This document shows positions 24,245 to 37,994 of a stretch of DNA of 43,538 nucleotides, piece after piece. The position numbers and the translations under genes were made by a program. Positions within the stretch are counted from its first letter, which is position 1. Each line of letters begins with the position of its first letter. Under the pieces are notes generated by a model. The model saw nothing but the letters and a program-made list of their open reading frames with translations. It made no database searches and was not told where the DNA came from. Where the stretch lies: contig JAJPHU010000060.1 of assembly GCA_021325115.1 (NCBI GenBank), positions 1-43,538 of the forward strand, read 5' to 3'. This DNA comes from Planctomycetota bacterium (GTDB lineage Bacteria > Planctomycetota > Planctomycetia > Gemmatales > Gemmataceae).

Positions 24245-27200
24245 TTACTCCGTAGCCCCGACGATTTCCGCCTGATCGGCGGCCTCCTCGGCAGCTTCTT
24301 CGCCAAGGGCGGTTCGCAACGCCGGGGCAGTCAGGCGCACTTCGGCCTCCTGATGCGTGCGGAAGCCTGTGCCGGCTGGGACCAGGTGGCCGAGGATGAC
24401 GTTCTCCTTCAAGCCGACCAGATAATCGACCTTGCCGGCCAAGGCCGCCTCGGTCAGCACCTTGGTCGTCTCCTGGAAGGACGCCGCTGAGATGAAGCTG
24501 TCCGACTGTACCGCCGCCTTGGTAATGCCCAACAATTGCGTACTGCATGTCGCTGGCATCGGTGTTGTGTAGGTCGGCAGCTCCTTGCCTTCCGCCTCCA
24601 AACGCGCTCGTTCTTCCTCGAACGCTTCCTTGCTGACGATCTTGCCGGCCACGAACTTGGAGTCGCCCGGATCCTTGATCTTGACGCACTCCTTCAGGCG
24701 ATCATTGACAGCGCGGAAGGCGAACTTATCGATGATCGAGCCAGGCAAGAGTCCCGTATCGCCCATCGTTTCCACCTTCACCTTGCGCAGCATTTGAGCC
24801 ACGATGATTTCGATATGTTTGTCGTCGATGTCCACGCGCTGACTGCGATAGACCGACTGCACTTCCGTGACCAGGTAGCGCTGCAATTCCTCGATGCCAG
24901 AGATCTTGAGGATCTCGTGCGGCACCAGCGGGCCGAACACCAGGCGTTGGCCCTCCTTGACACGGTCGCCGGTGTGGACGGCCAGGTGTTTGCCGGGCGG
25001 CACCTGATGCTCGCGCTCTTCGCCGACCGGCTTGCCGTTTTCATCGACCGGCTGAATGTAGATGAGCCGTTTGCCGCGTTTCTTCTCGCCCAGACGGACG
25101 ATGCCGGCCACCTCGGCCATCTTGGCCGGATCACGCGGCGTGCGTGCCTCGAAGATTTCCGTGACGCGCGGCAAGCCGCCGGTGATGTCCTGTGTGCCGG
25201 ACACCTCGCGCGGCGTCTTGGCCAATAGCGTGCCCGCCGACACTTTCATACCTTCGCGCACTTCCAGATACGCTTTCTCCGGCATGTAGTACGTGGCCAG
25301 GATCTGGCCGCGCTCGTCCTCGATGATGACCTGCGGGTGCAGGTCACCTTTGTGCTCCAGGATCACCCAGCGCTCGGCGCCAGTGACTTCATCGCGCTCC
25401 TTTTTCAGTGTCTGGTCCTCAACGATTTCATCGAAACGGACGCGGCCAGAGAACTCGGCGACGATCGGCGTGATGTGCGGGTCCCACTTGCACAACACTT
25501 GCCGCTCTTGTACTGTCTGGCCGTTCTCGACCAGGAGCACAGCCCCATTGGGGACGGCGTAGCTTTCCAGCACCTTCTCGTCCTTGGCGCCGGCGGTCTT
25601 CGGTTCGACGATCTTGATCTCGCCATTACGGCACAGGGCGATGCGTTCCCCTTTGTCGTTGAGGACATCGGTGATGCGCTCATAGCGGATAATGCCAGCC
25701 CTCTTGGCTTTGGCTTCCGACTCGCCCATCTCACGCTTGACGACACCGCCGATGTGGAAGGTGCGCATGGTCAGCTGCGTGCCCGGCTCGCCGATGGACT
25801 GAGCGGCGATGATGCCCACGGCCATGCCTTCCTCGACCAGCGCCCCGGTGGCCAGGTCCATGCCGTAGCACAGCCGGCACACACCCAGAGGCGCCTGGCA
25901 AGTCATCGGCGAACGCACGATGATCTTGTCGATGCCCATCGACTCGATTTTGCGCGCCGCTTCCCAGGAGATCATCTCATTTTCATCGACGATCATCTGA
26001 CCGGACACCGGATCCTTGATGGGATTGCGGCTGACACGGCCGCGGATCGTCTCGGACAACGGCCGCTCGATCTGCTCGCCCTTGTAAACCACGCCCTTGC
26101 TGACGCCCTGGGTAGTACCGCAATCATGCATGGTGACGACGACGTTCTGGGCCACGTCGGCCAGCTTGCGCGTCAGGTAACCCGAATCGGCCGTCTTCAG
26201 CGCGGTATCGGCCAAGCCCTTGCGGGCGCCGTGCGTCGAGCTGAAATATTCCAGTACACTGAGACCCTCACGGAAGTTGGCCTTAATGGGCGTCTCGATG
26301 ATGGTGCCGTTAGGCTTAGCCATCAGGCCGCGCATGCCAGCCAATTGGCGAATCTGCTCGGTGCCGCCGCGCGCGCCGGAGTTAGCCATCAAGTAGATCG
26401 GATTCAGGTACGGTCGTACCTGGCCGGTCTCGTCCTTGCGGCGATCGTTGCGCAGATCCTCCATCATCTGATCGGTGATCTGATCACGGGCATGAGTCCA
26501 CAGATCGATGACGTTGTTGTAGCGTTCGACCTCAGTGATGTTGCCGCGATCATACTGCTTGCGGAAGTAATCGACTTTCTTTTCGGTTTCGGCCAGCACT
26601 TTTTCCTTGTTGGCCGGCGTTTTCAAGTCGTCCGTGGCGAATGACAGGCCAGAGCGCGTCGATTCACGGAAGCCCAGGTCCTTCATGCGGTCGAGCAGAT
26701 CGATGGTCTCGCGGCGGCCGAGCAGCTGATAGCAGTCGGCGATGATGCGCGCCAGGTGCTTGCTCGATAGCGACAGGTCGTAAAACGCCATTTTCGGATT
26801 GAGAATGTCGTTGAACAAGACTCGGCCAACCGTGGTGAAGACCAGGCCGCTCGACTTGCGCGGCACTTCATCAACGCGTGTCTGGCCTTTTTCCACCTTG
26901 ATCTCGCTGATGACCTTCTTGTCAATGGGCAAGCGGACGTAGATGCGCGCGTGAACGCCGAGCTTTTTCTGGGAATAAGCGGCGAAGACTTCCTGGACGC
27001 TGGCGAAGGTCTTGCCCTCGCCGGCTTCGCCGGATTCACCCAACTCACCGCGCGTCGCCGTCAGGTAGTAGCAGCCCATGACGATGTCTTGCGACGGGCT
27101 GATGATCGGCTGTCCGTTGGCCGGACTGAAGATGTTGTTGGTAGACATCATCAGGATAGTCGCTTCTACCTGCGCCTCGATGGAGAGCGGCAGATGTACA

Positions 27201-28621
27201 GCCATCTGGTCGCCATCGAAGTCGGCGTTAAAGCCTTTGCATACCAACGGGTGGATGCGGATGGCGTTGCCTTCGATCAACACCGGCTCGAATGCCTGGA
27301 TGCCCATGCGGTGCAAGGTCGGCGCCCGGTTGAGCAGCACGGCATGGTTCTTGATGACCTCTTCGAGGATGTCCCAGACCTGCTCTTCCTTACGTTCGAG
27401 CATCTTCTTGGCCGACTTGATGGTGTCGGCATGGCCCAGTTCCTTGAGACGGCGGATGATGAACGGCTGGAACAGCTCCAGGGCAATCTTTTTAGGCAGA
27501 CCGCACTGGTGCAGCTTCAGCTCGGGGCCGACGACGATGACGGAGCGGGCCGAGTAATCGACGCGTTTGCCCAGCAGGTTCTCGCGGAAGCGGCCCTGCT
27601 TGCCCTTAATCATGTCGGTCAGCGATTTCAGCGGCCGATTGCTCGATCCCAGTACCGGACGCTTGCAGCGATTGTTGTCGAACAAGGCATCGACCGACTG
27701 CTGGAGCATCCGTTTCTCGTTGCGGATGATGACTTCAGGGGCATTGAGGTCCACCAGTTTCTTGAGACGGTTGTTGCGGTTGATAATACGACGATAAAGA
27801 TCGTTCAAGTCGCTAGTGGCAAAGTTGCCACTGTCCAGAAGCACGAGTGGCCGTAGATCAGGAGGAATAACCGGGATGCACTCCAGCACCATCCACTCTG
27901 GCTTGTTTTGCGGTCCGCCCAGACCGGAATCGCGCAGCGACTCGACCACTTTCAAGCGCTTGACCAGATCGCGCTGTTTCTGTTTGGACGGCTTATCCTT
28001 TCGGTTCTCTTCGTCGAGTTTTTCGCGCAGCTCGATGGCCAGCTGGACCAGGTCGAGATCTTCGAGCAGCTTCTTGATGGCCTCGGCGCCCATGTCTGCC
28101 TCGAAGGCGTCGCCGTAGTTTTCGCGGGCCTTGCGGTAGTCTTCCTCGGTCAGGAGTTGATACTTCTTCAAGGGCGTATCGCCCGGATCAATGACGACGT
28201 AATCCTGGAAATAAATGATCTTTTCCAGACTGGTCGTTTTCATGTCCAGGAGCGTGCCCAGCCGCGACGGCATGGCCTTGAAGAACCAGATGTGGACGAC
28301 GGGGGCGGCCAATTCGATGTGGCCCATACGTTTGCGGCGAACGCGGCTGTGCGTGACCTTGACGCCGCAGCGGTCGCAGATCATACCCTTGTATTTCATG
28401 CCGCGGTACTTGCCGCAGGCGCATTCCCAGTCCTTCTCCGGGCCGAAGATGCGCTCGCAGAACAAACCATCCTTTTCGGGACGATAGGTCCGATAATTGA
28501 TCGTTTCCGGCTTTTTGACTTCGCCGAACGACCAGGAGCGAATATCATGCGGACTGGCCAGGCTGATGCGCACCGCCCCATAGTCGTTGATACGATCGTA
28601 ATTCATTTCGCCGTTACTCAT
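24245..28621 (-). CDS. rpoC: DNA-directed RNA polymerase subunit beta'
   Basis: The 1458-residue product has an AGGAGG site upstream of ATG. The N-terminal zinc finger has C67, C69, C82 and C85 ([15 protein letters not shown]). The catalytic [12 protein letters not shown], with three Mg-binding Asp residues, is near residue 465. The second zinc site is formed by a Cys near residue 833 (MHDCGTTQG) and [11 protein letters not shown] near 905-916. It is slightly longer than the E. coli subunit (1407). With beta it forms the polymerase active centre. rpoC follows rpoB after 94 bp, as in nearly all bacteria, and both lie in the tuf-to-fusA cluster. Confidence 0.98.
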
Positions 28622-35840: not shown

Positions 35841-36617
35841 TTACGCTTGTTCCACTTGCCAGTATTCAAACTCCACCTGCACGGGCCGGCCGAAGATCGT
35901 CAACTCGACCGATACGCTGCCCTTGGCCTCGTGCAATTCCTTGACGTCGCCCTCCATGCCAGCGAAAGTGCCGTCCGTGACCTTGACACGGTCGCCGGGA
36001 CCGAAGCGCGGCTTGGTGTAGACGACCTTGCCCTCTTCGGCCTTGGCTTCGGCACCCTTGATCTGCCCATGCAGCATGCGCTCGATCTCCCGATCGGACA
36101 TGGGCGGCGGCGGACGATGCACCGAGCCACCCACAAAATCGCCGACCCCGGAGGTCTCTCGAAAGAGATAGAGGATTCGATCGTTGTATTCCACCTCGAC
36201 CATCAAATATCCCGGATAGAGCTTGCGTTCTTTCTGTACGCGGCGGCCATTGCGCATCTCCGTGACGCGCTCCACCGGGATGACGATCTGACCGTAATAC
36301 TCTTCCAGTCCTTCGATTTTAACCCGTTTTTCGATGGCTTCCTTGATCGCTTCTTCGCGGCCGCTCTGCACTTTGACGACATACCAGCGTTTGTTGCTCG
36401 GTTTGGGCTGCGGCGGCGTCGCTTCCGCTTCAGCGCTGCTCGCGTGGGGTTGTTCGGCAGCAGGCTCCGTTGTTTGCGGCGGACCTGCAGGCGCCCCCGC
36501 TTCGGGATGCTCTTCCGCAGGGACTGGGGACGATGTCTGTTCTGGTTGGGCGCTTTCCGGCGGTGGAGGGGGCGTCACCGCGGGAGTGGGTTCAGGAGTA
36601 GAAACGTTCTCTGTCAT
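35841..36617 (-). CDS. nusG: Transcription antitermination factor NusG with Pro-rich N-terminal extension
   Basis: The 258-residue product has about 75 extra N-terminal residues rich in Pro, Glu and Thr (TPAVTPPPPPESAQPEQ). The NGN domain starts at NKRWYVVKVQSGREE (about residue 75) and includes RKLYPGYLMVEVEYNDRILY. The KOW domain (about 202-256) begins FGPGDRVKVTDGTFAGMEGD and is complete. NusG binds RNA polymerase beta' and links it to ribosomes, Rho or antitermination complexes. The acidic Pro-rich tail contrasts with the basic L1 tail two genes downstream. The gene follows secE after 84 bp. Confidence 0.96.
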   Translation of the reverse strand: MTENVSTPEPTPAVTPPPPPESAQPEQTSSPVPAEEHPEAGAPAGPPQTTEPAAEQPHASSAEAEATPPQPKPSNKRWYVVKVQSGREEAIKEAIEKRVKIEGLEEYYGQIVIPVERVTEMRNGRRVQKERKLYPGYLMVEVEYNDRILYLFRETSGVGDFVGGSVHRPPPPMSDREIERMLHGQIKGAEAKAEEGKVVYTKPRFGPGDRVKVTDGTFAGMEGDVKELHEAKGSVSVELTIFGRPVQVEFEYWQVEQA

Positions 36618-36701: not shown

Positions 36702-37994
36702 TCACCACGGTCTGTCTTCGGGCGGTTGGGCCGCTCCCTTTTGCTCCTCAGAAGATATTCTCAAAACACCGATGGGCGGCCAACTCAGTATAGACTTCCA
36801 CATCACATCCATGCTGAACAGATAGAAAGCCATCAACACCACGGTCACCAACACGACGATGGTGTCCTGAACCAGCCGCCGTTGCGTGGTCCACGACACT
36901 TTATTCATCTCTGCTTCGGTGGCGATGAGGAAGTCGGCGAAGACCGGCACATTGACGACGCGCCAGGCCAGCCAGATTCCTGCAGCCAGCATCAGCAGTG
37001 GCACTGTGAACTGCACGGACGGCAACAACGTCAAACTGCGATAGATCAACGTGCCTGTGGCCGGCTGCGGCATTTCATACTGAGGCTCGATTCCGTTTTC
37101 ACTCTTGATTTTCTTGACCTCCGCCTCATACTCGGAACGCGCTACGACCTGTCCTACTGCAAAACTCGATGAGCCAGGCTCCTTGATCTTCACGAACCGG
37201 GCTGGATCGACGCTCATATTGATCTGCTGGAACGTGGAGCGATCGAGAACGAGAGTATGATCTTGCAAATGCGACTTCCAATCGGGTGCGTACTTGGCAA
37301 GCTCCTCATCTGACACGTCTCCCCGCGCTTCCAGAACGACGCGGCCCGTGAAGGGCACATCGAGTTGCCAATCGTGCGGCCATCGACGCAAGGTGCCATG
37401 CGCTAGCATGGTCCAGATGCCGGCGCCGATCAGCACCAGGATACCGAAGATGGTGCCGCGGCGAACGCGTACGCCTTGCAGGGCTTTGTATGGCCGCACA
37501 CTGAACCAGCCTTGCTCCTCCAGTTCCACCAGAAAGCGTTCGCTTTTCGGCCGCAAGAACAGCCGGCCACCGAAGATCAGCAAGGCCAATCCAATGACGG
37601 CAGTGAGGATGGCTCCGACAGTGGGACTGAACCAGCCACGATCGTAGCTCCAATATTCGATCCACAAGCTGGCCCAACGAGTCAGCAAGAGGATCACGAA
37701 AAAGCCGACGAAGGCGACGAAGATGCCGGCGCGGACGCCGGGAACCGTTTTCGGTCCCAACAGGCGGGTGCCGTACACGAGCAATCCGACCAGCGCCGCC
37801 AGCTGAATCAAGATGCGGAGCATCAGGGCGGTGTTGCCTTCCCAGCCCAGGCTTTGCCCCAGGGACGGGATAAGGTAGAAGACGATTCCGAGCGTGCCCA
37901 GCAGGTAAGCCGCACCGGCGAGGCTAGCGACCGCCATGCGATCGAGCAGGCTCCCAGACGCGACTTCCGGCGTATTTTTGACGGCCACGGCCAT
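36702..37994 (-). CDS. secE: SecE with a six-helix N-terminal membrane extension
   Basis: The 430-residue product has about seven membrane segments: residues 22-43, 55-77, 88-106, 124-144, 181-200, 325-346 and 376-396. The last, with the preceding amphipathic helix EAEMNKVSWTTQRRLVQDTI (361-380), is the SecE core; normal bacterial SecE has 60-130 residues. The basic loops at 78-87 and 147-180 and a 120-residue extracytoplasmic loop (201-324) fit the positive-inside rule with SecE in its usual orientation. SecE is the essential clamp around SecY in protein export. Position between tuf/tRNA-Trp and nusG confirms the identity. The function of the extension is unknown. Confidence 0.88.
   Translation of the reverse strand: MAVAVKNTPEVASGSLLDRMAVASLAGAAYLLGTLGIVFYLIPSLGQSLGWEGNTALMLRILIQLAALVGLLVYGTRLLGPKTVPGVRAGIFVAFVGFFVILLLTRWASLWIEYWSYDRGWFSPTVGAILTAVIGLALLIFGGRLFLRPKSERFLVELEEQGWFSVRPYKALQGVRVRRGTIFGILVLIGAGIWTMLAHGTLRRWPHDWQLDVPFTGRVVLEARGDVSDEELAKYAPDWKSHLQDHTLVLDRSTFQQINMSVDPARFVKIKEPGSSSFAVGQVVARSEYEAEVKKIKSENGIEPQYEMPQPATGTLIYRSLTLLPSVQFTVPLLMLAAGIWLAWRVVNVPVFADFLIATEAEMNKVSWTTQRRLVQDTIVVLVTVVLMAFYLFSMDVMWKSILSWPPIGVLRISSEEQKGAAQPPEDRPW

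Follow-up and report, generated by a model that had tools for sequence, protein, structure and literature searches.

In a planctomycete of the family Gemmataceae, the gene secE encodes a protein of 430 residues that we assign, from sequence and predicted-structure comparisons, to a new SecE architecture, one domain of which shares ancestry with a segment of RpoC, the beta' subunit of RNA polymerase. We consider it very probable that this fused domain is derived from RpoC. Few bacterial proteins are as conserved as SecE and RpoC, and an exchange of parts between them is scarcely expected. The gain of an RpoC domain by SecE, together with its predicted move across the membrane, would represent a clear birth of a new domain within an essential machine. 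If, as may be the case, the domain was also recruited for docking, a transcription-machine fold would act in protein export on the far side of the membrane. The Gemmatales, planctomycetes noted for elaborate membranes, possess a remodelled translocon subunit. We found no report of a long SecE in Gemmata or other planctomycetes, or of an RpoC segment in SecE, in the open-access literature.

A sole secE gene with an intact core domain

We analyzed a 43,538-nucleotide stretch of contig JAJPHU010000060.1 (the window). Its features are as follows.

36702..37994, minus strand: secE, 430 aa, seven predicted membrane helices, sole SecE of the genome.
37500..37994, minus strand: N-terminal four-helix domain (TM1-4), residues 1-165, found in Gemmatales SecE only, with no significant PDB fold match.
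37386..37499, minus strand: start of the ancestral three-helix SecE, residues 166-203, with the YKxxQGxRVRRGT motif and TM5 (equivalent to TM1 of the E. coli type), placed by outgroup alignment.
37029..37382, minus strand: inserted loop domain, residues ~205-322, homologous to the RpoC segment and predicted to be extracytoplasmic.
36765..37028, minus strand: TM6, the SecE amphipathic helix and core TM7, residues ~323-410, placed by Pfam SecE (355-405) and the model.
24245..28621, minus strand: rpoC, RNA polymerase beta' (1458 aa), on the same strand and in the same gene cluster as secE.
24536..24787, minus strand: donor-type module in RpoC, aa ~1279-1362, two tandem units directly before LLGITKA, kept in RpoC.

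The gene order is tuf - rpmG - tRNA-Trp - secE - nusG - rplK - rplA - rplJ - rplL - rpoB - rpoC. The reading frame thus lies in the expected secE place, with tRNA-Trp on one side and nusG on the other. It starts with ATG and runs for 430 codons with no internal stops. The core domain scored above the curated cut-offs of both Pfam SecE (PF00584; E = 1.4e-11, residues 355-405, 44.6 bits versus 22.7) and NCBIfam secE_bact (TIGR00964; 39.2 bits versus 27.55). It was the only SecE match in the genome, which is 93.7% complete, and this sole copy lies in the tuf/secE/nusG/rpl/rpo cluster. SecE usually has one or three helices, a common but not strictly defining trait, and this protein has seven. It is a variant SecE architecture in which the defining core domain is intact.

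Other genes of the window also have unusual features. NusG (35841-36617, minus strand) carries a proline/glutamate-rich N-terminal extension of ~75 aa ahead of its NGN domain, and ribosomal protein L1 (34207-35163, minus strand; 318 aa) has a long N-terminal extension rich in alanine, proline, and lysine. Between 38073 and 40217 (minus strand), tRNA genes for Thr(tgt), Tyr, Gly, and Thr(ggt) precede tuf, and tRNA-Trp precedes secE, an order that we take to resemble thrU-tyrU-glyT-thrT-tufB of E. coli.

An earlier sequence-only reading of this DNA had proposed an unbroken fusion that is not an obvious assembly artifact, and this was borne out. The same architecture occurs in related planctomycetes from independent metagenomes, with 64-79% identity within genus. 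Furthermore, pairwise dN/dS values (NG86; pairs in three genera) were 0.08-0.29 for TM1-4, 0.04-0.32 for the loop, and 0.03-0.06 for the SecE core. Because these values are far below 1 throughout, all parts of SecE are very probably translated and kept. An assembly chimera or a pseudogene is ruled out by the many independent genomes and by purifying selection.

SecE is normally far shorter, and the sequence is compatible with a short SecE made from an internal start, the upstream frame being something else or untranslated. We regard this as highly improbable. The N-terminus (MAVAVKN and similar) and the helices are conserved across the Gemmataceae, frames were open in the homologs that were read, and TM1-4 evolves under the constraint given above.

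Four N-terminal helices older than the loop

Hydropathy and an AlphaFold2 model agreed on seven membrane helices (residues ~20-48, 54-79, 87-119, 124-147, 175-199, 327-348, and 371-403), in line with the consistent topology seen by the sequence-only reading. The model had a mean pLDDT of 89 and was built from a SecE-only alignment containing zero RpoC sequences. The large loop (residues ~201-326) was well folded in the model, with block-mean pLDDT of ~86-98.

The count of six extra helices in the sequence-only reading is correct only if SecE with a single helix is the reference. The SecE proteins of E. coli (PMC5766551) and of other Planctomycetia have three, and the number added is therefore four. 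With the E. coli type, the protein shares the core domain, the amphipathic and core helices, the place before nusG, and its status as sole SecE; its C-terminal ~265 aa align with other Planctomycetia three-helix SecE once the loop is removed. It differs in its length (430 aa versus roughly 130-150), its four additional N-terminal helices, and a folded insert of ~120 aa in the outside loop between helices 1 and 2 of the ancestral unit.

Among a set of 59 related genomes, the extra N-terminal helices were present in all fully read Gemmatales SecE (33 Gemmataceae genomes and 6 genomes of the sister family). SecE from Planctomycetia outside the Gemmatales lacked them and was of the ordinary E. coli-like three-helix type. 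In ten outgroup loci, the region upstream of SecE contained no separate gene for the helices. Searching 294 genomes of the phylum with a four-helix profile retrieved this genome (E = 3e-51) and four other, marginal matches (5e-4 to 8e-4). A PDB fold search with the domain returned nothing better than E = 1.4, and Pfam gave just DUF7937 (E = 0.0016; 17.8 bits, below the cut-off of 31), leaving no significant known family or fold by Pfam, PDB fold, or phylum search. Given their presence throughout the Gemmatales, the near-absence of matches in the phylum, and the lack of a fold match, we conclude that the helices are an order-level addition. They do not replace SecG, which is present in this genome and was found in the loop-bearing genomes searched.

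The helices and the loop had originally been described as one extra domain. Both are real, but they were added at different times: first the helices, which all of the Gemmatales read share, and later, in a subgroup, the RpoC-derived loop.

Homology of the loop to RpoC

Within the window, SecE matched RpoC by BLASTP with E = 3e-7 (34% over 65 aa). Residues 249-322 matched a frame of ~1480 aa in nearly all of the relatives' genomes, the window counterpart of which is rpoC. Two tandem units precede LLGITKA in RpoC ([23 protein letters not shown], [33 protein letters not shown]), and the SecE loop has them in the same order. Aligning the loop profile with the RpoC profile (hhalign) gave a probability of 99.3 and E = 9.2e-21 over 88 columns; as a control, the four-helix profile aligned with RpoC over one column (E = 0.58). 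In ten genomes, the top local match of the loop in the genome's own full-length RpoC was the stretch before LLGITKA (z of 5.3-16.3 versus shuffles). The match in G030 reached further upstream of that stretch.

The relationship was specific in both directions. Every match to the loop profile under E = 0.001 in the 59 genomes was SecE or RpoC, and the RpoC module, searched against 95 Gemmataceae genomes, found RpoC and SecE only. For these 95 genomes, the latter result rules out a module that is mobile across many proteins. Against all PDB sequences, a single loop had 11 matches at E ≤ 10, each weak (E = 1.3), and all 11 were to one site in beta'. With the loop profile, the best match was again beta' (E = 0.0014), and 16 of the 20 matches at E ≤ 10 were RNA polymerase chains; the rest were SMC1A and von Willebrand factor. 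In a Foldseek search of the PDB with the SecE model, the top 50 matches were all beta' (probability of 1.00), with a modest best E of 0.0018 and with TM-scores that were low because the entire 430-aa protein was compared. The matched sites were residues ~1264-1345 in 9n9p, 1251-1333 in 8dkc, and 1163-1201 in 5uh5. In sum of tandem-unit profile, predicted fold, and reciprocal specificity, the loop behaved as an RpoC module.

Despite this agreement, the likeness could reflect chance or convergence on a generic small beta/alpha motif, with non-coding DNA or some other protein as the source of the loop. In G024, G027, and VGXS, the loop resembles RpoC only weakly (hhalign E = 8e-5, probability 61), and the pairwise z of the loop against the genome's own RpoC was -0.2 in G024 and 1.3 in G027. 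These three are probably diverged members of the same group. A collinear match of two units, exclusivity in both reciprocal searches, and the convergence of PDB sequence and fold matches on one RpoC site make coincidence exceedingly unlikely, and we favor homology between the loop and the RpoC segment.

The SecE copy is like the RpoC segment before LLGITKA in sequence, order of units, and predicted fold. It is unlike it in being free of the remainder of beta', in having extra residues before and within the units, and in its predicted place outside the membrane. RNA polymerase itself accepts lineage-specific tandem insert modules, SBHM and BBM2 (PMC2939025). The SecE loop resembles these inserts as a set of small tandem modules in a loop of a universal protein. 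Unlike SBHM and BBM2, which lie within RNA polymerase, it places an RNA polymerase segment in an unrelated membrane protein. Pfam gave no significant match on the loop, and its RpoC models end at about residue 1291, so routine domain annotation would miss the link.

Some Gemmataceae have RpoC frames of 1521-1582 aa with an additional copy of the module elsewhere in the frame (G010:C11:103474-103587, G101:C201:68129-68263, G018:C496:4825-4968, and G070:C9:50028-50165).

Distribution and history of the loop

Helices 5 and 6 are joined by a loop of ~17-41 residues in most Gemmataceae (69 in G028) and of ~110-300 in a subgroup, and the site of insertion is visible in alignments with loopless relatives. 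SecE loop matches were found in 20 genomes from nine genus codes (g1, g12, g13, g15, g19, g28, g29, g54, and g57). Carriers with named records are all uncultured genomes. The loopless Gemmataceae include Zavarzinella formosa, Gemmata, and Limnoglobus, and the suggestion of the sequence-only reading that the extra domain is tied to unusual internal membranes found no support.

When the RpoC tree was built after removal of the module, nine carriers and two genomes with divergent loops formed one clade (SH-aLRT of 99). G015, which has a clear loop, fell outside this main carrier clade. A tree of SecE without the loop likewise placed 19 carriers in one clade (80/88) but gave no firm position for G015. 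The loop in G015 may reflect one gain followed by losses, a transfer, or a second gain.

When RpoC modules and SecE loops were placed in one tree, all RpoC modules grouped apart from all loops (97/95). This separation speaks for a single ancient capture more than for several and gives no support to separate captures by each genome from its own rpoC, although the length of several loop branches weakens the test. Carriers retain the module in RpoC, which points to a copy rather than a transfer out of rpoC. We infer that the direction was from RpoC to SecE because the module occurs widely among bacterial RpoC proteins but only narrowly in SecE. As secE and rpoC lie ~8 kb apart on the same strand, local duplication would be the simplest route.

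Predicted location and possible role

The loop that joins helices 1 and 2 of E. coli SecE is periplasmic. In the Gemmataceae protein, the SecE core fixes the orientation, and the positively charged linkers are the ones predicted to be cytoplasmic: that between TM2 and TM3 has 3 K/R and no D/E, and that between TM4 and TM5 has 7 K/R and 4 D/E. The large loop is net acidic (15 K/R and 18 D/E). Together, these features predict that the RpoC-derived domain lies outside the membrane. The fold does originate in a cytoplasmic machine, and secE and rpoC share a gene cluster; a cytoplasmic loop could mimic an RNA polymerase surface and couple the translocon with transcription, so that transcription, translation, and insertion are linked. 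However, the core orientation and the helix count put the loop outside, and the charges of the linkers and loop oppose a cytoplasmic placement as well, making such coupling very hard to sustain.

We therefore return to an outside location and to how the protein may have been assembled. The C-terminal part would be the ancestral E. coli-like three-helix SecE, bracing SecY as usual. Four N-terminal membrane helices would have been gained in the ancestor of the Gemmatales. A copy of the two-unit beta/alpha module of rpoC would then have been inserted between ancestral helices 1 and 2 in one Gemmataceae subgroup, so that a fold which belongs to the cytoplasm as part of RNA polymerase would now form a folded domain on the outer face of the translocon. 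In its fullest form, this account has the rpoC segment duplicated into secE inside the shared cluster and then taken on as a dedicated docking domain outside the membrane, which is conceivable but somewhat less likely than not.

The sequence-only reading had also raised the idea that the extra parts modify the Sec translocon, which is plausible given that this SecE is the genome's only one. In E. coli, YidC touches SecE through its own periplasmic loop (PMC5766551), and a larger outer domain of SecE could by extension act on the docking of YidC, SecDF, or chaperones. The likeliest use would be a rigid docking or shielding surface on the outer side of the translocon (e.g., for YidC, SecDF, or periplasmic chaperones), and a docking role in particular is conceivable, if far from assured.

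Alternatively, the loop could be a structural passenger: a chance rpoC fragment with a harmless fold that has neither partner nor specific function. Its conserved positions are mainly those common to RpoC, that is, those that keep the fold; its length ranges from ~112 to ~300 aa; and it evolves faster than the SecE core. Against this, the loop persists in about nine genera, the main clade shows no clear loss of it, and its dN/dS indicates constraint. We judge a passenger unlikely, though by no means far-fetched.

Two further SecE proteins differ from those described above. In L151 (contig JABISG010000036.1; SecE ORF of 258 aa), the four-helix part is absent, and an apparently unrelated insert of ~100 aa occupies the same helix 1-2 loop, suggesting that this loop tolerates insertions. 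The SecE of G015 (L010; 535 aa) has a C-terminal extension of ~90 aa past the core helix, unique among the SecE sequences that were read.
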